Source of the DNA: Geobacter sp. UBA1603
GTDB taxonomy: Bacteria; Desulfobacterota; Desulfuromonadia; Geobacterales; Pseudopelobacteraceae
Direction of reading: 5' to 3'
DNA length: 27,533 bases
NCBI GenBank assembly: GCA_002322035.1
Contig: DCNF01000089.1
Coordinates: 41,310-68,842, forward strand
Shown here: positions 4,958 to 24,472 of the stretch, piece after piece
Layout: each line of letters opens with the position of its first letter
Position numbering within the stretch: position 1 is the stretch's first letter
The notes under the pieces: generated by a model
The model's input: only the letters and a program-made list of their open reading frames with translations
Told to the model about the DNA's origin: nothing
The model's database searches: none
Program-made: the position numbers and the translations under genes

Positions 4958-4992
4958 AAATTGCTCGTAGCAGCGTGGTGTTGGTAGGATGT

Positions 4993-5001
4993 ACTATAGC
5001 A
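4993..5001 (-). promoter_or_regulatory. Putative extended -10 promoter for the aminotransferase operon
   Basis: The minus strand reads TGCTATAGT, an extended -10 element with TATAGT at 4993-4998, about 36 bases upstream of the ATG at 4957. No good -35 is present at 16-18 bases, which is typical of extended -10 promoters or of activator-dependent ones. The direct repeats at 5019-5089 lie just upstream in the activator position. Confidence 0.4.
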
Positions 5002-5018
5002 GAAATCAGTATCATCCG

Positions 5019-5089
5019 CATTCTTTTCTGACATTGTTTTCTGGGCATCTTTTCTGTTACAGCACGGTTGCGGGTCCATTCTTTTCTGA
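5019..5089. repeat. Cluster of four imperfect 13-base direct repeats, CATTCTTTTCTGA type
   Basis: Copies on the plus strand are CATTCTTTTCTGA (5019-5031), CATTGTTTTCTGG (5032-5044), CATCTTTTCTGTT (5046-5058) and, after an 18-base gap, CATTCTTTTCTGA (5077-5089). The first three are head-to-tail with a spacing of 13-14 bases; the outer two are identical. Their position, 20-100 bases upstream of a promoter, suggests binding sites for a regulator. Confidence 0.75.
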
Positions 5090-5315
5090 TATTCTTCAAC
5101 GAGTTGATACCGAAAACCCTGCATCTTCAAGTGGGGGAGATAAGACTTATCAAGGCCTCGGCAGAAGCATTTATTATGACCGTGCTTACAATATGTCTCC
5201 TGGCACCCGCAGGATGCGAATGGACTTCGAATGGATTATGGAGGGTTCGTGCCTGAAATCGGTGAAAACGATACCACGTATTCAGCAGGATAGCCTTAAC
5301 ACGGAGCTCTAGCAT

Positions 5316-8960: not shown

Positions 8961-8972
8961 AAGCGGCCCTTG

Positions 8973-9824: not shown

Positions 9825-10416
9825 GGCCGTGGTTATCGGTGTTTCGACCGGAGGCGTCGAGGCACTGCGCACCGTATTAATGGCTCTTCCGGCCAGTTTC
9901 CCACTGCCGGTTATGGTGGTGGCTCATATCGCCCCCGAGTCAGGTAGCGGCCTGGCACGGCTGCTTGACGACCTCTGTTCCATCCGTGTAAAGGAGGCCG
10001 ATGAATTCGAGACAGCGGTCCCGGGAACGGTCTATCTGGCACCTGCCAACTATCACCTGCAGGTTGAGGCAGGAGGAGTACTGACACTCTCGGTCGATGC
10101 CCCGGTCAGTTACGCCCGACCGTCGGCGGATGTGTTGTTCGAGACGGCTGCGGCTGCCTACGGTGACGAGTTGGCAGGTGTCATACTGACCGGCGCAGGC
10201 GGCGACGGAGCCAGGGGGCTGGAGAAGGTTCGCCGTATGGGTGGTATTGTAGTTGTCCAGCACCCCGATGATGCGGAGTGTTCATCGATGCCTCTGCAGT
10301 CACTTATGCTGGTCAGGCCAGACTATGTGGTGCCCCTCAAAGATGTTGCATCGCTGTTGATTGAGCTTGCTGGAACGAGCGCACACCATGAAAAGGAGTG
10401 CACATATGCCGAATAA
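9793..10416 (+). CDS. cheB: Receiver-less CheB-type protein-glutamate methylesterase
   Basis: A 207-residue methylesterase domain without the N-terminal receiver of classical CheB. The catalytic Ser18 and Thr19 lie in IGVSTGG, His45 in VAHIAPE and Asp138 in TGAGGDGARG. The enzyme hydrolyses glutamyl methyl esters and may deamidate glutamines. The chosen ATG at 9793 follows GGAAG by four bases and begins MKRPKKKRS; a longer open frame upstream lies entirely within cheR and is rejected. Without a receiver it cannot be activated by CheA-type phosphotransfer to itself, so its control must differ, for example by binding a partner receiver. It overlaps cheR upstream and the next kinase downstream by 11 bases. 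Confidence 0.92.
   Translation: MKRPKKKRSVKAVVIGVSTGGVEALRTVLMALPASFPLPVMVVAHIAPESGSGLARLLDDLCSIRVKEADEFETAVPGTVYLAPANYHLQVEAGGVLTLSVDAPVSYARPSADVLFETAAAAYGDELAGVILTGAGGDGARGLEKVRRMGGIVVVQHPDDAECSSMPLQSLMLVRPDYVVPLKDVASLLIELAGTSAHHEKECTYAE
9805..9813 (+). repeat. A9 homopolymer in the cheR-cheB overlap
   Basis: Nine A lie within both reading frames: near the CheR C-terminus (APEKKTVR) and in CheB codons 5-7 (KKK). Loss of one A in the transcript would join the CheR frame to the CheB frame. Confidence 0.9.
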
Positions 10417-12394
10417 TGAACCGATCAAGGTGCTTATCGTTGATGATCGGCCCGAAAACTTGACAGCCCTTGAAGCTCTGCTGGGGGACATGGGGTTTCT
10501 GCTCGTGCGCGCCCTGTCCGGGAACGAGGCGCTCCGGCTGACTCTCAGGCACACCTTTGCGTTGGTTCTGCTTGATGTCCAGATGCCTGATATGGATGGT
10601 TTCGAGACCGCCGAGTTGCTCAGGTCGAATCCCAAAACCCGGAACCTGCCGATCATGTTTATCACGGCAGGCATGAAGGACCTCAACTATCAGTTCAAAG
10701 GATATGACATCGGTGCCGTCGACTACCTTGCCAAGCCGATAGAGCCCCACGTCTTGAGAAGTAAAGTGCGGGTCTTCTGTGACCTTCATGCCCAAAGGCT
10801 TGAGATTGAGCGGCGTGAAGAGGCTCTGGAGGAACTGGTGCGGCAGCGTACCGAAACCCTGGTGCAGACCGCCGAATCGCTTCTGGAGAGCCGTGAACGC
10901 TACCGCAGTGCTTTCGAACAGGCCGCGGTCGGGATTGCCCACGTGTCCACTGAAGGCACTATTCTGCAAGCGAATCCTGCCTATTGCACAATGCTCCGGT
11001 TTGAACGTTCCGAACTCGAGGGTAAGTCACTGCAGGACATTACCTGCTCCGATATGATCATGGAAGATCTCGGAAATATGGATCTGATGCGCGAGGGCAA
11101 ACTGTTCGCGTATACCGTTGAGCAGCGCTGTTTTCGCAAGGACGGGACCCAGGCCTGGTTACGTAACACGGTATCCCTGGCCCGTGATAAAGAAGGCAGG
11201 CCGGAATATTTCATCCGTGTTGCAGAGGATTTTACTGAAAACCAGGTGCTTAGGGAACAGCTACTCCAGTCTCAGAAAATGGAGGCGGTTGGATTGCTGG
11301 CCGGCGGAATCGCCCATGATTTTAACAATATCCTGAGTGTTATTATGGGGTATGGCAACATGATCAGCATGAAGGCCGGGAGAGACCCCCAGATAGAGGG
11401 ATACCTTAACAGCCTGATCGGTGCCACCGAAAAAGCTGCCGCCCTTACCCGCGGGTTGCTGGCATTCAGCCGCAAGCAGGAGATAACTCTTCAGGTCGCT
11501 GATCTAAATGATCTGGTTATTAGGGTTTCGAAGCTGTTGGAACGGATTGTTCCCGAGGACATCAGTTTTGATGTCAGGACCTGCGAGGGTCGTCTGGCGG
11601 TCAACATAGATGCCGGGCAGATCGAACAGGTCATGATGAACCTGGTGACCAACGCTCGTGATGCTATGCCGCAGGGGGGGGCACTGAACGTGACCACCGA
11701 ACTGGTCACTCTGGATGCCAATTTTGTGAGTGCACACGGGTTCGGTGCGCCCGGTGACTACGCAATGGTCTGTGTTGCCGATACCGGGGAGGGAATCAAT
11801 CGCGAGGTGATGAAGCGGATCTTTGACCCATTTTTTACCACCAAGGAGATCGGTCATGGGACCGGCCTCGGCTTGTCGATTGTCTATGGCATCGTCAGCC
11901 GCCATAACGGATATGTCAAGGTCTTCAGTGAGCCGGGGGTGGGCACGTCATTCCGGGTCTATCTGCCGCTGTACGCCAACAAAATTGATGATAAACCGTC
12001 TGCTGTTGCGGTTCCGCCGCGTGGTGGGAGCGAAACAATTCTGCTGGCCGAGGATGATGAGTTGATCAGGGTCATGGAGACCCAGGTGCTCGCTGATTAC
12101 GGATACAAGGTCATTGCCGCATGCAACGGGCAGGAAGTTCTGCAGATTTACCGGGAGCAGGGCGATTCGATTGCACTGCTTTTGCTTGATGTCATTATGC
12201 CGGTGATGAACGGCAGTGATGCCTACGAAGAAATTCGGAAGATAAAGCCTGATGTAAAGGCGCTCTTCATAACCGGATATACGGCAGACTTGGTCGAGAA
12301 CAAAGGTTTGAGCCTGGGTGATGTGGGTATGGTCATGAAACCGGTCTTGCCTCAGGAACTGGCGCGCAGAGTGCGTCAGGCGCTTGACTCGTAA
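10406..12394 (+). CDS. Hybrid histidine kinase with N-terminal receiver (REC-PAS-HisKA-HATPase-REC)
   Basis: A 662-residue soluble kinase. The N-terminal receiver begins with VLIVDDRPEN and has acceptor Asp57 in LLDVQMPDMDG. It is followed by a short coiled coil, a PAS domain (about 155-275), a phospho-acceptor His304 in GGIAHDFNNIL, an ATPase domain with VADTGEGI and GTGLGLSIVYGI, and a C-terminal receiver with Asp595. The start at 10406 is fixed by AAGGAGTG seven bases upstream; a frame extending to 10361 lacks such support. The gene overlaps cheB by 11 bases. The N-terminal receiver is a natural phosphate entry point from the membrane kinase at the head of the operon, suggesting a relay; this is inference. 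It resembles the kinase at 24690 from PAS to the final receiver. Confidence 0.92.
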   Translation: MPNNEPIKVLIVDDRPENLTALEALLGDMGFLLVRALSGNEALRLTLRHTFALVLLDVQMPDMDGFETAELLRSNPKTRNLPIMFITAGMKDLNYQFKGYDIGAVDYLAKPIEPHVLRSKVRVFCDLHAQRLEIERREEALEELVRQRTETLVQTAESLLESRERYRSAFEQAAVGIAHVSTEGTILQANPAYCTMLRFERSELEGKSLQDITCSDMIMEDLGNMDLMREGKLFAYTVEQRCFRKDGTQAWLRNTVSLARDKEGRPEYFIRVAEDFTENQVLREQLLQSQKMEAVGLLAGGIAHDFNNILSVIMGYGNMISMKAGRDPQIEGYLNSLIGATEKAAALTRGLLAFSRKQEITLQVADLNDLVIRVSKLLERIVPEDISFDVRTCEGRLAVNIDAGQIEQVMMNLVTNARDAMPQGGALNVTTELVTLDANFVSAHGFGAPGDYAMVCVADTGEGINREVMKRIFDPFFTTKEIGHGTGLGLSIVYGIVSRHNGYVKVFSEPGVGTSFRVYLPLYANKIDDKPSAVAVPPRGGSETILLAEDDELIRVMETQVLADYGYKVIAACNGQEVLQIYREQGDSIALLLLDVIMPVMNGSDAYEEIRKIKPDVKALFITGYTADLVENKGLSLGDVGMVMKPVLPQELARRVRQALDS

Positions 12395-12452: not shown

Positions 12453-13040
12453 TTAGAGGGTTCCTTTGGTCGACATGACGCCCGCAACCCGGGGGTCGAT
12501 CTGGGAAGCGGCATCCATGGAGCGGGCAAAGGCTTTGAAGCAGGCTTCAATGATGTGGTGTACATTGTCACCGTACATGACATTGATGTGCAGGTTTATC
12601 CCGGCATGGTTGACGAAAGCCTGGAAAAATTCCCGGGCCAGTTCAACGTCGAATTCTCCGATCTTAACCTTGGGGAGGTTTACATGGTAGACCAGATAGG
12701 GGCGGCCTGATATGTCGATTGCAACCGAAGCGATGGTCTCGTCCATCGGAACGGTCGCCTGTCCGTAGCGCCGGATACCCTTCTTTTCTCCCAGGGCCTG
12801 CTTGAATGCCTGGCCGAGCACAATGCCGATATCCTCGACCGTGTGATGGAAATCAATGTCGATGTCGCCGGATGCCTCAACTTGGAGATCAAAAAGACCA
12901 TGCCGGGCAAACAGATTGAGCATGTGATCCAGAAACGGCACCGAGGTGCAGATGGATGCGGTACCGGTGCCATCGACGTTGAGGTCAAGGCGGATCCTGG
13001 TTTCGCTTGTTGTTCGTTCAATCTGTGCCGTACGTGACAT
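12453..13040 (-). CDS. hisB: Imidazoleglycerol-phosphate dehydratase HisB
   Basis: 195 residues, the size of the monofunctional bacterial enzyme. It catalyses the dehydration of imidazole glycerol phosphate to imidazole acetol phosphate in histidine synthesis. Metal-binding repeats are visible as [15 protein letters not shown] and [15 protein letters not shown], with LDHMLN near the N-terminus. The ATG at 13040 follows AAAGGAG with a six-base gap; an in-frame ATG at 13079 lies upstream of that site and is rejected. It is the last gene of a hisC / zinc-ribbon / hisB group and converges on the plus-strand kinase, leaving 58 bases with no clear terminator. hisH, hisA and hisF, which often follow, are not in the window. 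Confidence 0.95.
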
Positions 13041-13065
13041 ATCCGGCTCCTTTCGCGGCTGAAGG

Positions 13066-13467
13066 CTATTTTTTGTCAATCACGTCAAATTTGTCCAACG
13101 GGCTTCCTAGCAACAGGAAGGCTTTGCCTTCCGTGTCATCCCAGAGAGAGATGTAGCCTTTCCATCCTTTGTTGAGCAGCAGCTCCTTGAGCGCGTAGAG
13201 CACATCTGCGGACGGGGGGGTGTGGAATGCGTTATAGCCACAGTAACCACCGGGCGGGATCAGGCGGAATGCGCCATAGCCCTTTGCTTCGCTGCGCATG
13301 ACCAGTTCTGGTCGAGTCTCGTCCCAGTTGAGTTCTTCATAGGCAGTCCAGCCGCAGACCGGACACATAAGGCGCCGGGCGCTGCTTGCTCCCCACGCTT
13401 CCGTGTCAATCCGGGCGTACTCGAATCCGCACTGATTGCATGGTTCATGCATATCTTTGAGAGCCAT
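13066..13467 (-). CDS. Hypothetical zinc-ribbon protein between hisC and hisB
   Basis: 133 residues, beginning MALKDMHEP at an ATG preceded by AGGAGAAG; the longer frame upstream is a shadow of hisC. Two CxxC pairs (C10/C13 and C35/C38) form a likely zinc ribbon. The rest contains [21 protein letters not shown] and an alpha/beta C-terminal half ending in a charged tail. I do not recognise the family. Its ribosome-binding site overlaps the hisC stop, and hisB begins 25 bases after it, so it is co-transcribed with both. A role near histidine metabolism is possible from context only. Confidence 0.7.
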
Positions 13468-13477
13468 AGTGCTTCTC

Positions 13478-14533
13478 CTAGCCGATTTCGACCAGAGCTG
13501 CCAGGGTGTGTTCCATTTCTTCACGGGTACCGACTGAAATGCGCAGACCATGGCAGAGCAGTGGGTCGGAAAAGTGACGCACCAGAATTTTTCTGGCATA
13601 GAGCCCATCGTAAACCCGTGTACCCTCACGATCGGGCGGAGAGGCGAAGACGAAGTTGCCTTGGGAGGGGATCACTCCATACCCAATGGAACGTAGCCTA
13701 TCGCTGAACCATTCGCGGGTCTCGACGATCTTGCGGCAGCAGTTGCGGAAATACTCCTGGTCGCGGAGCGCTGCCACACAGGCTGCCTGTGCCAGTCGGT
13801 CGAGGTTGTAGTGGTCGCGGATCTTGTCAAGGGCCTGAATGACCTCCGGCCGGGCGATGGCAAGCCCCAGGCGCATGCCGGCCAGTGAGTAGCTTTTGGA
13901 GAGCGTGCGGGTGACCACCACATTGTCGTACTTCCGGACCAGATCGAGCGCGTTGGCATCGGCGAAGTCGGCATAGGCCTCGTCGACCACCAGCATGCCG
14001 CCGCAGTTACTCGCGAGCTCCTCGATGTAACTGATCGGGAAGGCGAACCCGAGCGGCGAGTTGGGAGTGGTCAGAAAAAAGATCCTCCCCTGGTAGTACT
14101 CGGGAAACGCCTCGATCTTCTTCAGATCGTCGGTCAGGCCGTAGGTGCAGACGATGGCCCCCTGAATTTCGGCCAGGGTGGAGTAATAGGAGTATGAGGG
14201 ATGGACGTAGCCGATCTCCTGCCCCTGGCCGGCGCAGGCGCGGATCAGGTTGTTGAGCACCTCGTCCGAGCCGTTGGCCATGATAATCCAGGATGGATCG
14301 AAACCGTACAGTTCTGCGGCCGCCTCCCGGAGAGTCTGGCTTGATGCGCTGGGGTAGGTACGCAGAGATGCTCCGTCGGGGCCCAACTCGGCCAGAATGG
14401 CATCCCGTACCTTCGGCGACGGGGGATAGGGGTTCTCATTGGTGTTGAGCTTGATCCACGAGGCGATGTCCGGGGGCTGATAGCCGGGCACATACCCGGC
14501 CATGGCGGCGATGTTCGGTCGAAGGCTGATCAT
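13478..14533 (-). CDS. hisC: Histidinol-phosphate aminotransferase HisC
   Basis: 351 residues, typical of HisC. It transfers an amino group from glutamate to imidazole acetol phosphate, giving histidinol phosphate. Marks are [12 protein letters not shown] near 29-40, ANGSDEV at 86-92, VVDEAYADF at 182-190 and the PLP lysine K213 in [16 protein letters not shown]. The usual NPNNPTG loop reads TPNSPLG (155-162), an odd but tolerable variant. The C-terminal GLRISVG carries the substrate carboxylate Arg. The ATG at 14533 lacks a strong ribosome-binding site. It follows the chemoreceptor gene by 84 bases on the same strand, so it may be read through from the hydrogenase cassette or have a weak promoter of its own. 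Confidence 0.95.
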
Positions 14534-14617
14534 AATGGTAGACCAATATCACGCCGATGGTGAGAAAATCAAGGAGGAACACAAGTCTCGCCGACCGGTT
14601 TCCCGTGCTGTAGAACG

Positions 14618-16147
14618 CTAAAATTTGAACCTGTTTACCATATTTGAGAGCTTGGTCACCTGCTTTTCCAGGTCGGTTGCGGCATTGAGGGATTCTGCTG
14701 CTCCGGATGCGTTCTTCTCGGTAACCTCGGTGATTTGCGTGGCGGTCCTGCTGATCTGTTCCAACCCTGCTGTCTGCTCGTGAATGTTGTGGAGTATCTC
14801 ATCTGCAAAATCGCTGATAGCACGGGCGCCGTGGACCGCGCCTTCGAGCTGCAGATCGATGTCACGGGAAAGTGCCGCGCCGTTTCTGGCCAGGCTGGAT
14901 GCCGTCTTCGTGAGGTTGCTTGTCGTTTTTGCAGATTCTGCCGACCTGACAGCAAGGTTATGGATTTCATCCGTCATGGTTTTGAACTCATTGCCGGTGC
15001 CTTCCACATGGGCCGCCTCAATTGCGGCGTTTACTCCCAAAAGGTTGGAGAAACGGGCCACATTCAGCAAATTGGCAATTAGTTCGCTGAACTCCTGCTG
15101 GTGCTCATCCCCCAGTTTTTTCTCGAACTCTTTCATTGCCTTGGCGGTTTCAGTACACTGGCGCGACAGTTTGCGGATTTCCTGTGCCACTACACCAAAT
15201 CCGCCGGCGGAGATCCTCATTCTGGCAGCCTTTTCAACCGCGCTGCCCGCAAGAGTTCCGGTCTCCCTGGCAATGCCGTCGATGTCTGTGGCGATCGTCG
15301 ATGTGCTGTCTGAAGCACCACTGATCTGGGTCATGGATGAGACCATGCTGTTCATCGACTCCTTGGCCTTGAGAATCGCCTCGACTGCCTTCTTGGCGTT
15401 AGCATGGGCATCCCTGGATTTCTCCGCACTCCTGACGGCACTCTCCGAAAGAGAGTTGAGGCTGCCGGACGTCTCTGTCAGCTGTTTGCTCTGTTCTTCG
15501 GCACCGCGGGCAACCGAGAAGCTTACGGCAGAAATTTTCCGGGCAACGTCGGAAACGAACCCGACCGTTTCAGAAACCTGTGAGATGGCATCGTGCAGCG
15601 ACCCGGCGGTAGCGTTCATGGCTTTGCGGATGGAGGCATGCTCTCCGCGGTATTTCCCGCTCATCCTGGCCTGGAGATCATAGCCGGCAAGCCGGTCGAG
15701 AACCTCACCCGCTTCGTGAATCGGGGCGATGACCGCATCCAGCGTGCTGTTCATACCGGAGATCAACTCCTTCCAGATGCCCTCATAATCCCAGTCATTG
15801 CCGCGGGTCTTCAGCTTGCCGGCCCGGATGCTGTCGATGAGGTGGATGGTCTCACCATGCATGCCGTAGAGGATTGCCAGCAGGGTATTGATATTCTGTT
15901 TGATCTGGTTGTATTCGCCCTGATAGTCCTCAATGACGAACGGCGGCAGCTTGCCGTGGGCGATTTCGGCAAGGGCATTGCCGGCAAGCCGCATCGGAGT
16001 TACCATGGCATCGATCATCCCGTTGACCATTTCCACCAGTTCAGCGTCGCTGCCTGCGAGAGAGGCGGTGTCTCCCCTGGCATCCAGTTGGCCAGCAATC
16101 ATGGCTTCAGACAGCTGCTTGATGATGTCATGTGCATTCATGCTCAT
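14618..16147 (-). CDS. Soluble poly-HAMP methyl-accepting chemotaxis protein with duplicated signalling tip
   Basis: 509 residues without a transmembrane segment or a recognisable ligand-binding domain. Residues 1-200 look like consecutive HAMP-type units (repeated G-x-L-x-x-R-G, Y-x-G-E/W and M-N patterns). Residues 205-509 are an MCP signalling domain: GAEEQSKQLTETSGSLNSL starts the descending helix and EQTAGLEQISRTATQITEV plus NRFKF ends the ascending one. The tip normally occurs once, but here tip-like blocks occur at 286-335 (IDGIARETGTLAG...GFGVVAQEIRKLS) and at 357-406 (VARFSNLLGVNAAIEAAH...EIHNLAVRSAESAK), 71 residues apart. Such proteins control CheA through CheW. The start ATG overlaps the protease stop (TGATG). 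It is the last gene of the hydrogenase cassette, which suggests that it reads the state of that complex. Confidence 0.9.
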   Translation of the reverse strand: MSMNAHDIIKQLSEAMIAGQLDARGDTASLAGSDAELVEMVNGMIDAMVTPMRLAGNALAEIAHGKLPPFVIEDYQGEYNQIKQNINTLLAILYGMHGETIHLIDSIRAGKLKTRGNDWDYEGIWKELISGMNSTLDAVIAPIHEAGEVLDRLAGYDLQARMSGKYRGEHASIRKAMNATAGSLHDAISQVSETVGFVSDVARKISAVSFSVARGAEEQSKQLTETSGSLNSLSESAVRSAEKSRDAHANAKKAVEAILKAKESMNSMVSSMTQISGASDSTSTIATDIDGIARETGTLAGSAVEKAARMRISAGGFGVVAQEIRKLSRQCTETAKAMKEFEKKLGDEHQQEFSELIANLLNVARFSNLLGVNAAIEAAHVEGTGNEFKTMTDEIHNLAVRSAESAKTTSNLTKTASSLARNGAALSRDIDLQLEGAVHGARAISDFADEILHNIHEQTAGLEQISRTATQITEVTEKNASGAAESLNAATDLEKQVTKLSNMVNRFKF

Positions 16148-16611
16148 CAGGGTCTCCCGTACACAAGGTCTTCAATGGTTTTGACTGCGGGGCCTATGGC
16201 CCTGTGAACTTCTTCACTCATGAATTCTATTGTCCTGTTGAAGCATCTGCCTTCGATGCCCACCAGCGTGATCCGTTCCGGCATGGTTCCCGGAAACAGT
16301 ACATTCCCGATTTCGATGGTTTCGCGCAGCCCCAGACCATGGGCTGAAATGGATGTCGCCGTTGCAGGCAGTGATTCCCAGGGGATGACATGAATCGTCC
16401 CCGGTGGAGCGCCAAGTTGAACCGCATCGACAACGATCAGATCGCTTTCTCCCTGCAGTAGCGGCAGAATATCGATGCCGCCGAGGCTGCAGTATTCAAC
16501 CCGTGCATCCTTGCAGGCCAAAAGCTGGCAGATCTCAAAACCGACCGCGTCATCGGCGATGAGTTCGTTTCCGATGCAGACAACTATTGTACGGCGGTCT
16601 GCAGGCAGCAT
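16147..16611 (-). CDS. [NiFe] hydrogenase maturation endopeptidase (HycI/HyaD/FrcD family, peptidase A31)
   Basis: 154 residues. The three nickel-sensing ligands of this family are all present: E16 in CIGNELIADDAVGFE, D62 in LIVVDAV and H91 in SAHGLGL. The enzyme cuts the C-terminal extension from the hydrogenase large subunit after nickel insertion. The large subunit encoded two genes upstream keeps such an extension of about 23 residues after its last metal-binding motif, so it is the natural substrate. The gene start overlaps the V4R-like gene by 28 bases with a weak ribosome-binding site, and its stop overlaps the chemoreceptor start. No hypA-F genes are in the window, so the pleiotropic maturation proteins must be elsewhere. 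Confidence 0.9.
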   Translation of the reverse strand: MLPADRRTIVVCIGNELIADDAVGFEICQLLACKDARVEYCSLGGIDILPLLQGESDLIVVDAVQLGAPPGTIHVIPWESLPATATSISAHGLGLRETIEIGNVLFPGTMPERITLVGIEGRCFNRTIEFMSEEVHRAIGPAVKTIEDLVYGRP

Positions 16612-17039
16612 TCGTTGCCGACGGATATCAACGTTGATTTTACCGGCCGGCAGAGCAGGCCATTGACGATGCCGTCAAAATAGGAGTGGAACAGCTTGCA
16701 GAGTGCTCCGCCTGTTTCGATGTTCCGCATTGTGCACATGTCCCTGAGAACGCATGACCGGAACGTCAGGTTTTCGCCTTCCAGTGAAACCTCGAACCCT
16801 GCCTTCATCTGCTCGCTCAACAGCGAGATGACATCCTGAAGCGTCGGATCAGAAAGGGTTACCGGAAGTTTTTTGGCGGTGTCACGGCCGGCTATTCTGC
16901 CGACCGGGGCCGTATTGCCACCCATGATGTTATCAATGGTGCTGGCAAAGGCATCCAGGAGAAAGGCAACCTCAATCGAGGCTTTCTGGTAGTCTTCCGG
17001 TAACAGGTCAAGAGTAGACTTGAAATCACTGGTGTTCAT
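16584..17039 (-). CDS. V4R-like protein 2, hydrogenase-associated
   Basis: 151 residues, related to the protein at 19649-20143. Shared features are an N-terminal helix around AFLLDAFAS, an AGRDTAKKL / AGVNLGKKL block, and a C-terminal core of FRSCVLRD (C96), GALCKLF (C114), a Phe-x-Gly and VGNECCLQ (C144/C145). This Cys and Gly spacing resembles the V4R (4-vinyl reductase) small-molecule-binding domain, but the match is by eye. Additional cysteines at 102 and 130 are specific to this copy. It starts within the ferredoxin stop (ATGA) and ends inside the protease gene. Possible roles are a ligand or redox sensor, or a chaperone for the hydrogenase; none is established. Confidence 0.7.
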   Translation of the reverse strand: MNTSDFKSTLDLLPEDYQKASIEVAFLLDAFASTIDNIMGGNTAPVGRIAGRDTAKKLPVTLSDPTLQDVISLLSEQMKAGFEVSLEGENLTFRSCVLRDMCTMRNIETGGALCKLFHSYFDGIVNGLLCRPVKSTLISVGNECCLQTAVQ

Positions 17040-17290
17040 AGGAACTTGCCCATCCTTTGGCAGAATTCCGCATCGCGGTAGAAATTCTTGACGGCGTGGT
17101 ACTCGGTATGGGTTATGGCATTTGATGGACAGATATAGGCACAGGAGAGGCAGGCGATGCAGTCCTCGGCATGCTTGACCACACAGAGACGCTTATCTGA
17201 GTCCAGTTCAAAGACCTTGGTCGGGCATATGTCGATACATAACTCGCATCCCCGGCATGACTGTTCGTGTACATCTATCTCAAGCGGCAT
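17036..17290 (-). CDS. 2x[4Fe-4S] ferredoxin
   Basis: 84 residues with two canonical cluster motifs, CRGCELCIDICP and CIACLSCAYICP. These bind two [4Fe-4S] clusters and make a low-potential electron carrier or an electron-transfer subunit. The start ATG at 17290 follows a strong GGAGGT; a longer frame that begins inside the large-subunit gene is a shadow. About 30 residues follow the second cluster, which could dock to a partner. It follows the hydrogenase large subunit and overlaps the next gene by four bases (ATGA). It probably takes electrons from, or gives them to, the small subunit, in the place that MvhD and heterodisulfide reductase occupy in archaeal Mvh operons. Confidence 0.92.
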   Translation of the reverse strand: MPLEIDVHEQSCRGCELCIDICPTKVFELDSDKRLCVVKHAEDCIACLSCAYICPSNAITHTEYHAVKNFYRDAEFCQRMGKFL

Positions 17291-17295
17291 GCCGG

Positions 17296-18708
17296 TTACC
17301 TCCGAATGGTCTTTAACGTTGAACCGCCGCGGGTGACGGCAATTTCCATGGGCATCCTGCCGATGGCATGGGTCGCGCACGAAAGGCACGGATCATAGCA
17401 GCGGATGCTGAATTCAACCGCATTCAGCAAGGCGGTATCATCCGGTTTGTCGATGACGTGTGACTGTGCCGCCTGGGCGATGGAGCGGTTGATGATGTTG
17501 TAGTTCTGCTGCGTGGCAACGATCAGGTTGGCCGCGCGGATAATGCCTTTCTCGTCAATTTCGTAATCATGGATCAGCGTGCCACGCGGCGCCTCTACAT
17601 GGCCTACCCCTCTGCCCCCCTTGAAGGATACCGGAACACGGGTCTCTCCCCATATCGCCTGGTTGTTGATGATTTCATCGGCGCGCTCGATGGCCCAGAT
17701 CATCTCGATCATCCTGGCGTAGGTCTGGAATACGGTCAGATGGCAGGGCCAGCCGCCCAGTTTCGTGAACTCGGCGTATTCAGCATCGGCCAGTTCTGTG
17801 CCGAAACGCCGGATGGCGTTCATGCGGGCCATGGGGCCGACCCGGTACTCATGAAGTCCGTCCAGATTGATATGCACCTTCTTCATGTACGACCATTCAA
17901 CCACTGACTCCTGCAGGTATCTGTCATACTCCTCAACGCCGAACTCGGCACGTATGGTACCGGTCTCGTCGATACTGCGCAGTTTTCCCTCGATCAGCGA
18001 GACCTTGTCGTCAAGCACCGTTCCCAGCGCCCAGGATGGTGCGACCCAGTCAGTAAGCATCGACGGATGTTTGTCAAGGGCGTTCAGCAGCAGCCCCTTT
18101 ACGGCCGGAACGACTGTCGGGAGCAGTCCGCGTGCTTCGTTGATCCACTCCTGGATATTCTTCTTTTTTTCCTGGTCCAATGTGAAGGTTATGCCGCCGG
18201 CCACTGATGTGACCGGATGGGTGCCGCGCCCGCCGACCATCTCGTTGATCTTCTGGCCGATGGTACGCAGGCGGAGGGCTATTTTTGCCAGTTCAGGATT
18301 GGCCTTGACGATGCCGACCACGTTGCGTTCAGCCGGATCGGAATCCAGGCCAAGCACCAGGTCAGGTCCCTGCAGCACAAAGATCGAGAGGCTGTGGGAG
18401 TGGATGATGTGCCCCATGTACATCAGTTCCCGCAGCAGCATGGCTGCCGGAGGCGGGGTCACTCCGGCCGCATGGTCGAGTGCATTGGAGGCGGCGATGT
18501 GGTGGGCGGTCGGGCACACCCCGCAGATGCGTGCCGTCACGTGCGGCATGCGGTCGGCCTCCATGCCGATCAGGATCTTCTCAAAGCCGCGAAGCTCATT
18601 GACCACCAGGCCGGCATTTTCGAGCCTGCCGTCGTCGTCGAGGTTGATGAACACCTTGGCGTGCCCTTCGATGCGGGTCACCGGATCAATTTTGATGCTT
18701 TTCTTCAT
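17296..18708 (-). CDS. Cytoplasmic [NiFe] hydrogenase large subunit (group 3, Mvh-like)
   Basis: 470 residues. The nickel-iron site ligands are C62 and C65 in RICGVCPTAHH, and C441 and C444 in DPCLSCATH. VTRIEGHAKV at the N-terminus is another family block. After H447 there remain 23 residues, the usual C-terminal peptide removed by the dedicated protease. Length and the L1/L2 motif wording match group 3 enzymes such as MvhA rather than periplasmic group 1. It oxidises or makes H2 together with the small subunit. GGGAGG lies before the ATG, which overlaps the small-subunit stop (ATGA). All catalytic residues I can check are intact, so the enzyme should be active. Confidence 0.95.
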   Translation of the reverse strand: MKKSIKIDPVTRIEGHAKVFINLDDDGRLENAGLVVNELRGFEKILIGMEADRMPHVTARICGVCPTAHHIAASNALDHAAGVTPPPAAMLLRELMYMGHIIHSHSLSIFVLQGPDLVLGLDSDPAERNVVGIVKANPELAKIALRLRTIGQKINEMVGGRGTHPVTSVAGGITFTLDQEKKKNIQEWINEARGLLPTVVPAVKGLLLNALDKHPSMLTDWVAPSWALGTVLDDKVSLIEGKLRSIDETGTIRAEFGVEEYDRYLQESVVEWSYMKKVHINLDGLHEYRVGPMARMNAIRRFGTELADAEYAEFTKLGGWPCHLTVFQTYARMIEMIWAIERADEIINNQAIWGETRVPVSFKGGRGVGHVEAPRGTLIHDYEIDEKGIIRAANLIVATQQNYNIINRSIAQAAQSHVIDKPDDTALLNAVEFSIRCYDPCLSCATHAIGRMPMEIAVTRGGSTLKTIRR

Positions 18709-19652
18709 GCCGTCCCTCCCGCCTCATAATCGGCATTTTCATCCTCGATCCACTTCTTGATGTGAAATGTCGGCTTGCTGCCGATCATCGAGGTTGCCAT
18801 GGTGTAGGAATAGTGAGATTTGGAAGCGCGCTCCAGGGAGGCGACAATCGTGTCACGGTCAATCTTTGTAAGGCGAGACATCCTGTCGGCGATCTCAGTG
18901 CGGATGTCGCGGTTGGGTTCGGTCAGTATCTGCAGGGTAGCGCCGGCGCATCCGGTGCAGGGCACGCCATTGGTCGGACAAGGAGCAAGGCATCGGTCGA
19001 TGGTCACTGATCCCATGCAGGTGTAGCCCTGGCTCAGGAAGCATTGTTCCTCATTGGGAATGCCCGAGGAGTTCGGAACAATCTCATTGACGTCGGTTTT
19101 CTCCATCTTGCGTGTGCATTTTGCACAGACGGAACGGTGATTGACCTCCGGCTGTCGCCCTTCCACCAGCGCCGAGAGCGCCTCGAAGACGAACGCCGGA
19201 TGGGGCGGGCATCCCGGCAGGTACAGGTCGACATCAATGACCGAATCAATGGGGCTGACCACTGATTCCATGGGAGAGATTTCTCTGCTTGGCGGGTGCG
19301 CAGAAGTCGTCGTTTTGTTCTCAAGGTAGACGGCCCGCCCGATCTCTGCCGGCGTATGAATGTTGCCGGCTCCGGCCGGGCCGCCAAATACGGCGCATGA
19401 ACCCCAGGCGATGACGATGTCGCAGGACTTTCGCATCTCGATGGCGGCATGGCGGTCATGCTCGTTGCGTATGGCTCCCGATACCAGCCCGACCGTGGCG
19501 TGCGGGTAATCCTTGATGTCGGTCAGCACCGGACAGCGCTGGATCTTGACCGCCTGAAGAACGTTAAGGATCTTCTCGTGCAGGTCGACTATCGCAATAT
19601 GGCAGCCGGAGCAGTCGCTCAGCCACTCGGTATTGACGGTGACGTCACTCAT
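18705..19652 (-). CDS. Cytoplasmic [NiFe] hydrogenase small subunit (group 3, Mvh-like)
   Basis: 315 residues with no Tat signal, so the enzyme is cytoplasmic. Proximal [4Fe-4S] ligands are C14 and C17 (DCSGCH), C86 (WGSCAVFGG) and C148 (PGCPPHP). Eight more cysteines (C176, C179, C204, C212, C221, C225, C232, C235) can hold two further [4Fe-4S] clusters, forming the wire from the nickel-iron site to the surface. Length and absence of a signal resemble MvhG. The ATG at 19652 follows GGAGGGAG and overlaps the V4R-like protein 1 stop by four bases. The acceptor is probably the ferredoxin encoded after the large subunit; no flavin or NAD-binding subunit is encoded nearby. Confidence 0.94.
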   Translation of the reverse strand: MSDVTVNTEWLSDCSGCHIAIVDLHEKILNVLQAVKIQRCPVLTDIKDYPHATVGLVSGAIRNEHDRHAAIEMRKSCDIVIAWGSCAVFGGPAGAGNIHTPAEIGRAVYLENKTTTSAHPPSREISPMESVVSPIDSVIDVDLYLPGCPPHPAFVFEALSALVEGRQPEVNHRSVCAKCTRKMEKTDVNEIVPNSSGIPNEEQCFLSQGYTCMGSVTIDRCLAPCPTNGVPCTGCAGATLQILTEPNRDIRTEIADRMSRLTKIDRDTIVASLERASKSHYSYTMATSMIGSKPTFHIKKWIEDENADYEAGGTA

Positions 19653-20143
19653 TGCTCCCTCCTGACGATCAGCTTCTTGTAGCAGGCATTCTCACCGGCA
19701 TGAACGATCTCAAGGGAGGACTCGCGCCCCATGATGTTCTGCAGTGCACCGGCAAAAAAACCATACATCATGTTGCAGAGGGAGCCTTTCTGGGTGTGGC
19801 CGAAGCGGAACAGGGACTGACGGATCATGCAGTCCCTGAAAACCAGCATGACCTGTGTCCCGTCATCATTCTCCTGGACGATCGAATCCTGGTCATGGGT
19901 CTTGAACGGCTCAAACAGCCACAGATAGTCGTTCTTCTCTAGGACCTCCCTGGTGGCCTTCAGTGCCTCTTGGATATCGCGTGTCTGGGGAACACCGGAA
20001 GAGAGCTTTTTACCGAGATTGACGCCGGCCAGATAGGAAATGCTATTGGCTGATTCGCCGATGGCCTGTTCCGTGCCGGAGGCGATAGCACCCAGGAACA
20101 CCATGGCGTCCTGAAGCGCCTTTCTCTGTTGATTTGTCTCCAT
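19649..20143 (-). CDS. V4R-like protein 1, hydrogenase-associated
   Basis: 164 residues from the ATG at 20143, which has AGGAG seven bases upstream; a TTG two codons earlier is less likely. The C-terminal half has FRDCMIRQ (C105), KGSLCNMMYGFFAG (C123) and HAGENACYKK (C154), the Cys/Gly pattern shared with the protein at 16584 and resembling V4R domains. The N-terminal half, with AGVNLGKKLSS, also matches that paralogue. It starts only ten bases after the frame-corrected cheW end and overlaps the hydrogenase small subunit, so it sits exactly between chemotaxis and hydrogenase genes. Function unknown; a sensory or coupling role is inference. Confidence 0.7.
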   Translation of the reverse strand: METNQQRKALQDAMVFLGAIASGTEQAIGESANSISYLAGVNLGKKLSSGVPQTRDIQEALKATREVLEKNDYLWLFEPFKTHDQDSIVQENDDGTQVMLVFRDCMIRQSLFRFGHTQKGSLCNMMYGFFAGALQNIMGRESSLEIVHAGENACYKKLIVRREQ

Positions 20144-20153
20144 TGACAAGCTC

Positions 20154-20578
20154 CTATGTGAGATGTTCGAGATTCAAGTACACCAGAAGTTTCTGATCGA
20201 GATGGAGGATCCCGTCGATCCATGGCTGCGTCACGATATCTAAGGGGGGGGCTGGATTTCACTCCGTTTGACGCGAATGACGTCGGAGATCTCATCGATG
20301 ATGAATCCGGTTAGTTCACCATTCAAATCCATCACAGCAATGCAACATGAGCTCTCGTCGTCAAGGTCAGCATGGTCGAAGCGATTGCGAAGTGAAATCA
20401 CGGGAACGATGCTACCACGCAGGTTTATAATTCCCCTGACATGGGCGGGGGAATTGGCTGATTTGGTGATTTCGGTGATGTTGATAATCTCGCGAACAGC
20501 CATGACATCAACAGCGTATTCCTGATTGTTTATGAAAAATGAAACCAGCTGGATTTCGTGGGACAGGATTGACGCCAC
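20154..20578 (-). pseudogene. cheW: CheW-like coupling protein, frameshifted at a C8 tract
   Basis: The frame as written ends at 20240 after ...VKRSEIQPPP, about 25-30 residues short of a full CheW. Visible CheW features are LVSFFINNQEYAVDVMAVREI, HVRGIINLRGSIVPVISLR and GFIIDEISDVI. Adding one C to the run of eight (plus-strand G at 20244-20251) reads on as LDIVTQPWIDGILHLDQ and KLLVYLNLEHLT before a TAG at 20154, an unmistakable CheW C-terminus, giving about 141 residues. A GTG at 20578 with GGGGTG upstream is the preferred start; a TTG at 20590 is possible. CheW links chemoreceptors to CheA. The break may be a sequencing error, a recent mutation or a phase-variable OFF state. It heads the hydrogenase cassette. 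Confidence 0.85.
20244..20251. repeat. G8 homopolymer (C8 on the coding strand) at the cheW frameshift
   Basis: Eight G on the plus strand. Nine would restore the full cheW frame; eight gives a stop two codons later. Confidence 0.9.
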
Positions 20579-20629
20579 ACAACACCCCAATCACGTGTAA
20601 TAGCCATTCGCCGGAAGAACAGCGCGCAT

Positions 20630-20657
20630 AGTGTATACAAAAATAAACTTAATGCAA
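20630..20657 (-). promoter_or_regulatory. Putative sigma-70 promoter of the cheW-hydrogenase-chemoreceptor cassette
   Basis: On the minus strand TTGCAT (20652-20657) and TACACT (20630-20635) are separated by 16 AT-rich bases. They lie about 50 bases before the cheW start, in the 141-base gap after hisD. No sigma-54 or sigma-28 consensus was found here. If real, the cassette can be expressed independently of the his genes. Confidence 0.4.
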
Positions 20658-20719
20658 GTTTTCTGTAACCGGAAGTTTTATTCGGTCAAACAGGAGGGAC
20701 AAGGGAGTGTGTTGGATTT

Positions 20720-22012
20720 TCAGGGAGTGATTCGGAGTGACACTGATTTCCCGTGGGCCTCAAGCCCTTCCAGGCCGGCGATGCGGACGATGTCGCTGCC
20801 GAGGCGTTTCAAGCCTCCTTCGGAGAAGTAAACGACAGAGGACTTCTTGACGAAATCATCCGTGGAGAGCGGGGAGAAAAAACGGGCGGTACCGCCGGTG
20901 GGCAGGGTGTGGTTTGGGCCGGCCAGGTAGTCACCGGCTGCTTCGGGGGTCCAGTGACCCATGAAGATTGCGCCGGCGTTGGTGATCATGGGCAAAATGG
21001 CGAATGGGTCCGCCACTGCCAGCTCCAGATGTTCCGGAGCGATTCGGTTGGAGAATTCGATCACTTCATCAAGATTCGAGGCAACGATGACAGCACCGAA
21101 CCGTTCCCATGACGCACGGGCAATTGATTCGCGGGAGAGCAGGTTTAACTGGTACTCCACCTCGGTGGCCACTTTCTCGCCGAAGGCACGGTCGGTGGTG
21201 ATCAGTATCGATGAGGCCAGTTCATCGTGCTCGGCCTGGGAGAGCAGATCAGCCGCAATGTGGGCCGGGTTGCCGCTACCGTCGCTGATGACCAGGATTT
21301 CGCTCGGGCCGGCGATCATGTCGATGCCCACCTGACCGAAGACCAGCTTCTTGGCCGTGGCGACGTAGATGTTACCCGGGCCGGTGATCTTGTCTACCTT
21401 TGGTACGGTCGCCGTTCCGTAGGCCAGAGCGGCCACGGCTTGGGCGCCGCCGATGCGGAAAATACGGTGGACGCCTGAAAGCTGAGCGGCAACCAGCACA
21501 TGGGGGTTGATCTCGCCCCCCGGCGTCGGTGCCACCATGATGATCTCGCCGACACCGGCAACCCGTGCCGGCACGGCGTTCATGATCACGCTCGACGGGT
21601 AGCTGGCCTTGCCGCCGGGGACATAGATACCGACCCGTGAGAGTGGTGTGACTTTTTGACCGAGCATAATGTCGGGCTCTTCTGTGGAAATCCAGGTCTG
21701 CTGCTTCTGCTTTTCGTGGAAGCGTGCCACCCGTTCGACTGCCAGCCGCAGTGAGGTGATGTCATCTGCTGAAACAGATGCAAAGGCAGTTTCGATCTCG
21801 GCTGGTGTCACTTCCAGTTCTGCCAGCGACGATGCAGCCACTTGATCAAAGCGCCGGGTCAGTTCCAGCACCGCCTGATCTCCCCGTGTGCGGACGTCGG
21901 CAATGATGTCGAGCACGATTTGCTCGACTTCACGCCCTGTTTCTTCGCCGCGGGCCAGTATCCTGCCAAATTGTGCAGTAAAGGTAGTGTCAGTGATATC
22001 AAGAAACAGCAT
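20720..22012 (-). CDS. hisD: Histidinol dehydrogenase HisD
   Basis: 430 residues, full length. It oxidises histidinol to histidine with two NAD. Family blocks are VGIYVPGGKASYPSSVIMNA, RIGGAQAVAALAYGT, DKITGPGN, IDMIAGPSEILV and HIAADLLSQAEHD with zinc-site residues, EHLEL, and GPNHTLPTGG near the C-terminus. The ATG at 22012 is preceded by GGAGA with a good gap. It lies 20 bases after the lipoprotein gene and is followed by 141 bases before cheW, unlike the tight hisD-hisC arrangement common in relatives. No feature suggests inactivation. Confidence 0.96.
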   Translation of the reverse strand: MLFLDITDTTFTAQFGRILARGEETGREVEQIVLDIIADVRTRGDQAVLELTRRFDQVAASSLAELEVTPAEIETAFASVSADDITSLRLAVERVARFHEKQKQQTWISTEEPDIMLGQKVTPLSRVGIYVPGGKASYPSSVIMNAVPARVAGVGEIIMVAPTPGGEINPHVLVAAQLSGVHRIFRIGGAQAVAALAYGTATVPKVDKITGPGNIYVATAKKLVFGQVGIDMIAGPSEILVISDGSGNPAHIAADLLSQAEHDELASSILITTDRAFGEKVATEVEYQLNLLSRESIARASWERFGAVIVASNLDEVIEFSNRIAPEHLELAVADPFAILPMITNAGAIFMGHWTPEAAGDYLAGPNHTLPTGGTARFFSPLSTDDFVKKSSVVYFSEGGLKRLGSDIVRIAGLEGLEAHGKSVSLRITP

Positions 22013-22032
22013 GAAGGTCTCCGGATCAGTTG

Positions 22033-22560
22033 TTATCTGGCAAAACCGCTGGCGCCGCGCAGGTCGAGTTTCAAAAGGACGGCAGCCTTCTCCCGGGCGG
22101 GGTTGTACTCCTGGGCAACCACAGCGGCACCTTTGAGGAAACCCTCCAATTTTACAGTGCCGCTGGAGAGCCGGAGCTCTCCAGCTGTGGCGTACCGGGC
22201 AAGGTACTGGGCCAGGTTGCGTCGTGCAACAATTTCGGCTGCCCGAGTTGCCGTAAGGCGCATCTGTGCGGCTCCGGTGGCACTGGCGGCATGTGTCCCT
22301 TCGCCGTAGGCAATAACGGCCCCTTGGGCAAAAGCCGGTTCATATTCGTAGGCGGCCGATTTCCCGGCATTGATGGTCATGTTGTTGGTCGCCAGCCAGG
22401 AATCTATGACCGGGAACGGACCTTGTTCGGCTGGTGCTGAGTGCTGACCAGTTGGAAGCTGATTCAGCGCAGGCGAACTGACGGGTGGGGGAGAAGCACA
22501 GGCTGCCAGCAGATTGAGTATAAGGAGGGCAGCAACCGGGAGGTACAAGGTATTTTTCAT
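22033..22560 (-). CDS. LPP20-like lipoprotein
   Basis: 175 residues. A type II signal peptide ends in a lipobox (LLAAC, Cys21), followed by a proline/serine-rich linker, so it should be a lipid-anchored envelope protein. The folded part has AAQMRLTATRAAEIVARR followed by NLAQYLARYATAG, the Ala/Arg-rich helix typical of LPP20-family lipoproteins, and a following EGFLKGAAVVAQEY strand. AAGGAG precedes the ATG. It is inserted in the histidine operon between hisG (17 bases upstream) and hisD (20 bases downstream), and has no obvious link to histidine synthesis. Molecular role unknown. Confidence 0.8.
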   Translation of the reverse strand: MKNTLYLPVAALLILNLLAACASPPPVSSPALNQLPTGQHSAPAEQGPFPVIDSWLATNNMTINAGKSAAYEYEPAFAQGAVIAYGEGTHAASATGAAQMRLTATRAAEIVARRNLAQYLARYATAGELRLSSGTVKLEGFLKGAAVVAQEYNPAREKAAVLLKLDLRGASGFAR

Positions 22561-22577
22561 CTCCGACTCCTTTTGCT

Positions 22578-23222
22578 TCAGGTGGCGAGAACCGCTTCCA
22601 GACCAGAAATGATCGCGCTGATCCGTTGATGTTTGGTCTTCAGGCTGGCACGGTTGACAATCAACCGCGTGGTGATTTCAGCAATGGTCTCAACTTCCAC
22701 GAGCCCGTTCTGGCGCAGGGTCTCACCGGTTGAAACCAGGTCGACAATCCGTTCAGAAAGCCCGACCAGCGGAGCGAGTTCGATGGAGCCGTAGAGTTTG
22801 ATCACCTCGACCTGTACCCCTTTGGAGGCGAAGTGGCGCTCGGTAACGTTGGGGTATTTGGTGGCAATGCGGATGTGTGACCAGGCTGCCGGATCATCGG
22901 TGCTGGCCAGTCTGGCCGGTTCGGCCACAATCATCCTGCAATAGCCGAATTTGAGGTCGAGCGGCTCGTACAGGTCTTTGCCCTGCTCCAGCAGTGTGTC
23001 TTTGCCGACAATGCCCACGTCAGCCGAGCCGTAATCGACGTAGGTCGGCACATCCGTTGCTCGGACGATCATGTATCGCATTTTCTGTTCATGGTTCTCA
23101 AAGACCAGTTTGCGTGAATCGGAGAGCAGTTCACCGCAGTCGATGCCAATTTTTGCGAAGAGCTCAACCGATTCTTCAAGGATACGTCCTTTGGGTATGG
23201 CAATAGTGATAGAGTCGTTCAT
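22578..23222 (-). CDS. hisG: ATP phosphoribosyltransferase, short form HisG
   Basis: 214 residues, the short form lacking the C-terminal regulatory domain. It catalyses the first step of histidine synthesis, ATP plus PRPP giving phosphoribosyl-ATP. Blocks include [59 protein letters not shown] and the PRPP loop [12 protein letters not shown]. Short HisG enzymes need the regulatory subunit HisZ, which is not in this window. The ATG overlaps the murA stop by four bases (ATGA), so the two are coupled; this murA-hisG junction is seen in other Geobacter-type genomes. Confidence 0.95.
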
Positions 23223-24472
23223 TCCTTCACCCGCTGGATATCCGCCCCGAGGCCGGCCAGTTTTTTCTCGATCGATTCATAGCCCCTGTCCAGATGGTAG
23301 ATCCTGGTCACCTCGGTGGTGCCTTCGGCGGCCAGACCAGCCAGAATCAGCGAAGCTGAAGCGCGCAGGTCGGTGGCCATCACCGGTGCTCCGGAAAGTT
23401 TTTTTACCCCTTTTACCGTGGCGGTATTCCCCTCGATCGTGATGTCAGCCCCGAAGCGGAGCAATTCCGAAACGTGCATGAAGCGGTTCTCGAAAATGTT
23501 TTCCGAGATAACGCTGGCGCTGTCGGCAATGCACATCATGGCCATGAACTGGGCCTGCATGTCGGTCGGGAAACCGGGATAGGGACGGGTTTTGATGTTG
23601 ACGCTCTTTAGCCGTCGCGGGCCTTTGACCCGGACGATCCCGTCACGGCTCGTGATTTCAACGCCGGCATCCTGCATTTTGAAGGCCAGGGCGTCAAGAT
23701 GTTCCAGCTTCATGCCGTTGATTCTGACATCGCCTCCGGTCATGGCGGCTGCGATCATGAACGTCCCGGCTTCGATCCGGTCCGGCATGACTTCGTAGCT
23801 GGCGGCTGACAGCTCAGATACACCTTGGATGCGGATTGTGTCAGTACCAGCCCCTTCGATTTTTGCCCCCATCCGGTTAAGGTAACATGCCAGGTCGACA
23901 ATTTCCGGCTCGCGGGCGGCATTTTCCAGAATTGTCTCTCCCTTGGCGGTGGCAGCTGCCATCATCAGGTGTTCGGTGCCGCCGACAGTGGAGATGTCAA
24001 AGTTGATTCGGGCTCCCTTGAGCCGTTTTGCCCGTGCCTCCACATATCCGTGGGTAAGTGTGATTTCGGCTCCCAGGGACTGGAGCCCCTTCAGGTGCAG
24101 ATTGATCGGACGTGCGCCGATGGCGCAGCCGCCCGGCAGTGAGACGCGGGCTTTGCCGAAGCGGGCCAGAAGTGGGCCCAGAACCAGTACCGAGGCCCGC
24201 ATGGTTTTGACCAGTTCATAGGTCGCCTCGTGGTTGGTGATCCCGGACGAATCGATTCTGACTGTGTGCCCGTTTCCCTCGACTGAAGCACCAAGAGATT
24301 CCAGCACCTTGATGGTCGTGTTGATGTCCCGCAGGAAGGGAACGTTACTGATCTGGTTCTGGCCGGGCGCCAGAATTGTGGCGCAAAAAATCGGCAGGGA
24401 AGCGTTTTTGGAGCCGCTGACAGTGACGTCTCCCCTGAGCTTTTTCCCGCCTTTGATGATGAGTTTATCCAC
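23219..24472 (-). CDS. murA: UDP-N-acetylglucosamine 1-carboxyvinyltransferase MurA
   Basis: 417 residues, full length. It transfers enolpyruvate from PEP to UDP-GlcNAc, the first committed step of peptidoglycan synthesis. K22 and N23 in GSKNASLP and the catalytic Cys116 in [10 protein letters not shown], the fosfomycin target, are present, as are the DRIEAGTF and [12 protein letters not shown] blocks. The start is a GTG at 24472 with GAGG upstream; no ATG nearby fits. It is the first gene of the murA-hisG-lipoprotein-hisD group, with a recognisable promoter about 30 bases upstream. Confidence 0.96.

Follow-up and report, generated by a model that had tools for sequence, protein, structure and literature searches.

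Gene content of the locus

Contig DCNF01000089.1 of Geobacter sp. UBA1603 (assembly GCA_002322035.1) carries, within the stretch of 27,533 nucleotides analyzed here (positions 41,310 to 68,842, hereafter the window, whose own numbering is used below), a block of minus-strand genes that encodes a [NiFe]-hydrogenase next to a chemoreceptor, i.e., a methyl-accepting chemotaxis protein (MCP). In order of transcription the genes are those for CheW, a first V4R-like protein (V4R1), the small and large hydrogenase subunits, a ferredoxin, a second V4R-like protein (V4R2), a maturation protease and the MCP. All open reading frames (ORFs) of the module gave the expected Pfam or NCBIfam matches except the two V4R-like proteins, for which there was none at E 0.001. 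The host assembly is incomplete (2.35 Mb, 75.9% complete), and the nearest named relatives, judged by small-subunit identity, are mostly metagenome genomes of Geobacteraceae and Desulfuromonadaceae. The features are (aa, amino acids):

20240..20590, minus strand: CheW, 116 aa as read (PF01584, E 4e-28, profile positions 1-102 of 138)
19649..20143, minus strand: V4R-like protein 1, 164 aa (from alignments, an AlphaFold2 model and Foldseek)
18705..19652, minus strand: [NiFe]-hydrogenase small subunit, MvhG/VhuG-like (VhuG profile, E 9e-71; MvhG of 5ODC, E 6e-69)
17296..18708, minus strand: [NiFe]-hydrogenase large subunit, MvhA/VhuA-like (VhuA profile, E 1e-103; MvhA of 5ODC, E 7e-99)
17036..17290, minus strand: 2x[4Fe-4S] ferredoxin, 84 aa (Fer4_7, E 1.7e-13; start set by relatives)
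16584..17039, minus strand: V4R-like protein 2, 151 aa (homologous to V4R1 by hhalign)
16147..16611, minus strand: hydrogenase maturation protease of the HycI/HupD type (PF01750, E 1e-14; TIGR00072, E 2e-29)
14618..16147, minus strand: soluble poly-HAMP MCP, 509 aa (HAMP_2, E 4e-35, and MCPsignal, E 6e-23, two stretches each)
15119..15301, minus strand: MCP signalling tip copy 1, residues 283-343 (internal repeat; MCPsignal positions 32-94 matched twice)
14906..15088, minus strand: MCP signalling tip copy 2, residues 354-414 (internal repeat; MCPsignal positions 32-94 matched twice)

The initial annotation, made from the sequence alone, described eight tightly packed genes joined for the most part by ATGA or TGATG overlaps. 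The description is accurate from V4R1 through the MCP: overlaps of 4 bases join V4R1 to the small subunit, the small to the large subunit and the ferredoxin to V4R2, the V4R2 and protease genes share 28 bases, and the protease and MCP genes share a single base (TGATG), while the large subunit and the ferredoxin are 5 bases apart. The junction between CheW and V4R1 is looser, V4R1 following the apparent CheW stop after 96 bases, so that CheW falls outside the tight packing. The ferredoxin most likely starts at 17290 and therefore does not overlap the large subunit, and for V4R1 the most likely start is the ATG at 20143, which gives 164 aa as in many relatives. From this spacing we infer that the module genes may be co-transcribed.

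Conservation of the hydrogenase-chemoreceptor linkage

Conserved co-occurrence, which the initial annotation had proposed as a check, was surveyed in 147 related genomes. Small-subunit matches of at least 69% identity were taken as close orthologues (one is partial, at 92%), and the MCP was searched for by its tip region (E 1e-10, with at most 27 candidates scored per genome). The close hydrogenase and the MCP occur together in 32 genomes, the MCP alone in 1, the hydrogenase alone in none, and neither in 114; the next small-subunit matches reach 45-46% (in G056, which also has a close copy, and in G010) and all others lie below 40%. Nor is the gene order unique to this genome, since V4R1, small subunit, large subunit, ferredoxin, V4R2, protease and MCP follow each other in all 31 other close loci as far as the contigs reach. 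Thirty of these lie on one contig (L063 begins inside the small subunit) and one is split over two. The MCP that occurs alone (G039) starts near residue 44 of the window MCP, follows a hybrid kinase and runs off the contig end, with no module genes in the 5.7 kb upstream; it is read as a remnant or an artefact. A chance neighborhood was rejected because the order is conserved and the genes co-occur, and the linkage of hydrogenase and MCP is real.

The chemotaxis genes had been assigned to the unit as a pair. For the MCP, found in 32 of 32 hydrogenase carriers, this assignment stands. For CheW it does not: the block is preceded by its own CheW in 17 of 17 close loci (L031-L047), but none was found upstream in 13 further close loci (L048-L060), and CheW was for this reason rejected as part of the core. 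All 32 carriers have flagellin-family matches (carriers only were compared, and the profile may match hook proteins too). The host genome itself contains flagellin-family matches, three CheA-domain matches and other MCP-domain matches; because of the latter two, there may be a chemosensory array for the MCP to plug into.

Hydrogenase, ferredoxin and protease

The best matches of both subunits in the Protein Data Bank are MvhA and MvhG of 5ODC, their closest solved relatives by sequence. The hydrogenase thus appears Mvh-like, from a lineage resembling [NiFe] group 3c, as classed by profiles and structure matches and not by HydDB; scores of 347 against a cut-off of 800 for VhuA and 238 against 450 for VhuG are both below the NCBIfam equivalog cut-offs. 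In the small subunit, 12 cysteines do not vary among 17 sequences with identities down to 44%, enough for three [4Fe-4S] clusters. The eight large subunits compared all have RICGVC (RLCGVC in one) and DPCLSCATH, and residues after DPCLSCATH form a C-terminal extension in the window protein, which together with the adjacent protease suggests maturation of the usual kind. A gene for HypD is present in another part of the host genome. HdrA and MvhD domains were not found in the 18 window ORFs scanned (the rest of the genome was not searched).

V4R-like proteins

The initial assignment of two V4R-like proteins is supported by a predicted fold for V4R1 and by profile comparison of V4R1 with V4R2. 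The AlphaFold2 model of V4R1 (predicted local distance difference test, pLDDT, 83.8) retrieved with Foldseek (best E 9.7e-5) first the V4R sensor domains of PoxR and MopR and then TRAPP Bet3; the DmpR domain is among the matches as well. The template modelling score against the PoxR and MopR domains is about 0.6, at an identity of about 12-16%. V4R1 is accordingly predicted to have the V4R/TRAPP fold, although it stays below the Pfam V4R cut-off (13 bits against 31, E 0.11). V4R2 gave no V4R match and is assigned to the same fold through its profile homology to V4R1 (hhalign probability 97.8, E 7e-13). Three cysteines of V4R1 (Cys107, Cys125, and Cys156 in the numbering of the 166-aa reading of this protein) are invariant in 40 chosen sequences and are possible metal or redox ligands. 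A profile search with V4R1 found 1246 relatives, and some among the 120 listed are labelled "predicted hydrocarbon binding protein."

Duplicated tip of the chemoreceptor

In the MCP, PF00015 and PF18947 score above their cut-offs, and a transmembrane segment is absent (highest Kyte-Doolittle mean over 19 residues 1.11), in agreement with the initial view of a receptor without membrane anchor. Instead of the single hairpin tip expected of an MCP, its tip is duplicated. Residues 283-343 align with 354-414 at a score of 54 (z 6.6), compared to 43 for the best of 200 shuffles, and L100 (score 141, z 22.3) and L110 (z 16.4) show the repeat clearly. It scores above all 200 shuffles in 22 of 30 MCP sequences. 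The eight below (z in brackets: L034, 1.3; L037, 2.6; L041, 4.2; L043, 3.7; L044, 1.7; L046, 3.9; L047, 3.2; L087, 3.7) are read as probable decay of complementary halves. In an alignment of 14 sequences, the second half is best kept in copy 1 (SAGGFGVVA-EIR) and the first half in copy 2 (NLLGVNAAIEAAHVEG). Both tip regions are free of gaps across the 30 MCPs, and length varies between the tips. The AlphaFold2 model of the MCP (pLDDT 80.6, predicted template modelling score 0.40) has two long helices (169-342 and 347-505) joined by a turn at 343-346 and not two tips, with a geometry that is too uncertain to be interpreted. The tip region retrieved 199 relatives, most of the 120 listed having about 509 aa, and the matches of the MCP in a search of plasmids all stayed below 60% identity.

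Two arrangements were observed beside the common one. In two separate genomes (L053, 385-2460; L099, 5043-7115), protease and MCP are joined in a single ORF of about 690 aa, and L072 and L096 carry another, dissimilar MCP gene immediately after that of the double-tip MCP.

The wider family and its neighboring genes

A scan of named genomes yielded 112 small-subunit relatives, of which 80 were kept. V4R1 is present in 77 of these loci, the large subunit in 79, the ferredoxin in 76 and V4R2 in 75, and every missing gene of this core (small subunit included) falls at a contig end; in 15 of the 80, ferredoxin and V4R2 are one ORF. CheW is found in 15 loci, which are exactly one clade of the small-subunit tree. 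The family MCP is linked in 38 loci, was not found in 33 with at least 2.2 kb of downstream sequence, and is undecidable in 9. On the small-subunit tree, in which the placement of long branches is unsure, the MCP label changes 6 times compared to a mean of 26.8 after shuffling, and the starred branches force at least 3 changes. The MCP loci form one clade of 35 rows (33 with the MCP, the other two cut by contig ends) plus five further loci from Eisenbacteria, Latescibacterota, Acidobacteria and two genomes labelled delta.

The 22 remaining non-MCP loci outside a further clade of 18 rows (L101, L107, L124-L143; singled out after the survey) have other neighbors. A kinase, Roadblock/LC7, response-regulator or DUF4388 protein is encoded directly adjacent and on the same strand in 11 of them, and signalling-gene adjacency is enriched at these outer loci over a high background. 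In the strongest cases, L127, L130 and L133, a Ser/Thr kinase gene borders the core on its 5' side and a Roadblock gene on its 3' side. Signalling domains were confirmed by Pfam in L107, L124, L125, L127, L133 and L138; those of L129, L130, L131, L134 and L135 were identified by phmmer alone. In L062, genes for a histidine kinase and for a receiver-DUF4388-Roadblock protein precede the core on its strand. That some distant copies of the core adjoin signalling proteins supports a sensory function.

MglA-like GTPases occur near some other loci without being adjacent, and the one checked belongs to the Arf family (E 1e-5). In L132, L140 and L142 such genes lie within a few kb of V4R-like genes, with a Roadblock gene in L132 and L140. 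The set of MglA, V4R-like (TRAPP-fold) and Roadblock genes is reminiscent of eukaryotic TRAPP/Rab regulators. L135 also has a second pair of small and large hydrogenase genes (4059-6086), a few kb upstream of the V4R-linked module.

A candidate sensor of H2 or redox state

Together, these observations make it fairly probable that the block encodes a cytoplasmic sensor module built on a [NiFe]-hydrogenase, with chemotaxis as its output in this genome. After maturation by the protease of the module, the Mvh-like enzyme would oxidize H2 or equilibrate with the H2/redox state. H2 would be split at the Ni-Fe site, and electrons would pass along the iron-sulfur (Fe-S) chain of the small subunit and reach the ferredoxin and both V4R-like proteins. 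The soluble poly-HAMP MCP could then sense that the V4R-like proteins have changed in redox state or conformation and, acting with CheW, would alter CheA activity; this CheW would be the module's own in one subclade and a different one in the other genomes. Complex formation, the flow of electrons to ferredoxin and V4R-like proteins, H2 as the stimulus and control of CheA are all steps that we infer. For the broader proposal the chances seem about even: that the module belongs to a multi-phylum family, not found described in the titles and abstract openings of the open-licence papers listed, in which Mvh-type [NiFe]-hydrogenase sensors and V4R/TRAPP-fold couplers are combined with exchangeable outputs. 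These outputs would be a double-tip chemoreceptor in the Geobacterales-type and other genomes, a Ser/Thr kinase with Roadblock in the Myxococcota-type, and response-regulator/Roadblock proteins elsewhere.

Several points weigh against a sensor with chemotactic output. A cleavable extension and a protease are usual for catalytic enzymes, and HupUV/HoxBC are not known to have them. The CheW of this genome is frameshifted, the residues of the MCP tip presumably deviate from the canonical ones, and the close relative G010 has only a distant module (45%) and no MCP. In the clade of 18 rows, mostly Desulfobulbales by label, the core has no adjacent same-strand MCP or other signalling gene of those searched for (L108, L116 and L121 are cut short downstream; L104 and L120 have a divergent histidine-kinase-like ORF upstream), and therefore the core may work without a linked output. 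Among control genes at the outer loci, a signalling gene is likewise adjacent to 21 of 114, and the seeds of the signalling search were drawn from the neighbors of these same loci.

Some of these points also bear on the foremost alternative, in which the main role of the hydrogenase is metabolic, with the ferredoxin or an acceptor bound to V4R taking up the electrons from H2, and the MCP responds to the turnover of the enzyme or to the local redox state; this would be energy taxis and no dedicated H2 sensor. The kept active-site motifs and Fe-S ligands, the module's own protease and the 18-row clade are in line with this alternative, which we nevertheless consider unlikely, as the usual Mvh partner genes are not seen among the 18 window ORFs and some distant copies have kinase, Roadblock and response-regulator genes as neighbors. 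It is improbable that the stimulus is a small, aromatic or hydrocarbon-like molecule bound by the V4R-like pair, with the hydrogenase setting the redox state of the ligand or site: the top structural matches of V4R1 do include the domains of the phenol sensors PoxR and MopR, with DmpR also listed, but a ligand alone leaves the hydrogenase and its Fe-S chain in the unit unexplained. That MCP and CheW are a scaffold or regulator of the hydrogenase and do not report to CheA is very improbable, even if a duplicated, altered tip may not bind CheA and CheW normally and the MCP is fused to the protease in two genomes, given the CheW that precedes the block in all of L031-L047 and the kinases or regulators adjoining several outer loci.

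If the preferred explanation, a hydrogenase sensor with chemotactic output, is correct, the module suggests an H2 or redox sensor able to steer cell movement. On the broader proposal of exchangeable outputs, one H2 input would have been connected on several occasions to different signalling systems. H2 is a main currency of anoxic sediments and syntrophy, and to our knowledge little is known about how motile bacteria find it. The [NiFe] module is tied to an MCP in Geomonas paludis, Geomonas azotofigens and Trichlorobacter thiogenes, which makes H2 taxis directly testable. Furthermore, V4R-fold proteins may serve to couple a redox enzyme to a signalling protein, and the doubled-tip receptor is material for work on array assembly.

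Comparison with known systems

Mvh/Vhu ([NiFe] group 3c) shares its Fe-S and Ni-Fe ligand motifs with the present hydrogenase. However, Mvh/Vhu has MvhD/HdrABC partners, none of which was found among the 18 window ORFs, and the partners here are a ferredoxin, two V4R-like proteins and signalling genes. HupUV/HoxBC with HoxJ (group 2b) links a soluble [NiFe]-hydrogenase to a kinase system, a link that for the present module is proposed only. Group 2b belongs to a different hydrogenase group and acts via a histidine kinase, whereas the output here would be via an MCP, and the present module has the C-terminal extension and protease that group 2b is not known to have. Membership in group 2b was rejected, the best matches being Vhu/Mvh, F420-type and NAD-reducing enzymes.

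According to the accessible part of the HydDB description, the [NiFe] H2 sensors are groups 2b (histidine kinase) and 2c (diguanylate cyclase, putative), with 2d possibly regulatory, and the [FeFe] sensors are C1, C2 ("Chemotactic (putative)") and C3 (phosphatase), a linkage to MCPs being given there for C2 only (PMC5037454). The initial annotation pointed to no described link between a sensory [NiFe]-hydrogenase and an MCP, and neither such a link nor a pairing of V4R proteins with a hydrogenase was found in the titles and abstract openings of the open-licence papers listed; these papers include some that name hydrogenase together with chemotaxis (among them PMC10787695 and PMC9888536) or use the word "hydrogenotaxis" (PMC4266047). 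For [FeFe] C2, H2 sensing via MCPs had already been proposed (PMC5037454). The C2 enzymes differ in having an unrelated metal site and protein family, while the present module has NiFeSe_Hases and Oxidored_q6 domains; if the proposed reading is right, the module works like C2 but from a [NiFe] group 3c-like lineage. For Fibrobacteres, putative sensory hydrogenases for H2 gradients are mentioned, and the present gene set is not given in the accessible part of that source (PMC4704652); the word "hydrogenase" is absent from the accessible part of PMC2577667.

With PoxR, MopR, DmpR and TRAPP Bet3, V4R1 shares a predicted fold at low identity. Natural single-chain MCP signalling domains are known and, as far as the accessible text goes, also carry more than one signalling region per chain, but join whole signalling domains, whereas here about 60 tip residues are duplicated (PMC4692393). 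No description of a tip-only duplication was found in the literature searched.

CheW and the histidine gene setting

The reading frame of the window CheW breaks at eight consecutive C (20244-20251), beyond which another frame runs to a stop at 20154 and resembles the C-termini of the relatives' CheW proteins. These have 141-167 aa as called in 17 relatives and are about 25-30 residues longer. A sequencing error, slippage or a real lesion are possible origins of the frameshift.

The initial annotation did not include that the block is flanked by his genes on its own strand: hisD lies 129 bases upstream of CheW, and hisC follows the MCP after 84 bases. The run of his genes (12453-24472) reads murA-hisG-ORF-hisD, module, hisC-ORF-hisB, with an unassigned 175-aa ORF at 22033-22560 between hisG and hisD. 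In 10 of 23 relatives hisD directly precedes hisC, and in the other 13 no hisD was found within the roughly 1.5 kb fetched on each side of hisC. None of the 23 has an MCP or CheW gene beside hisC, and therefore the insertion of the module into the his run looks specific to this genome; a chimeric assembly at the his junctions is a possible alternative. Likewise, no his genes were found in 33 fetched module loci of relatives (3.9-19 kb). The GC content (proportion of guanine and cytosine) is alike in module (0.558) and his flanks (0.581 and 0.577). The his-operon position was rejected as meaningful, the arrangement being seen only in this genome.

Other features of the window

Promoter- and terminator-like sites are no more frequent in the window than in shuffled sequence, and no Rfam match was found in it. 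A separate signalling cluster lies at 5316-12394. It comprises a hybrid kinase that combines three receivers with a 4HB_MCP domain, then CheR and one more ORF, and a second hybrid kinase.

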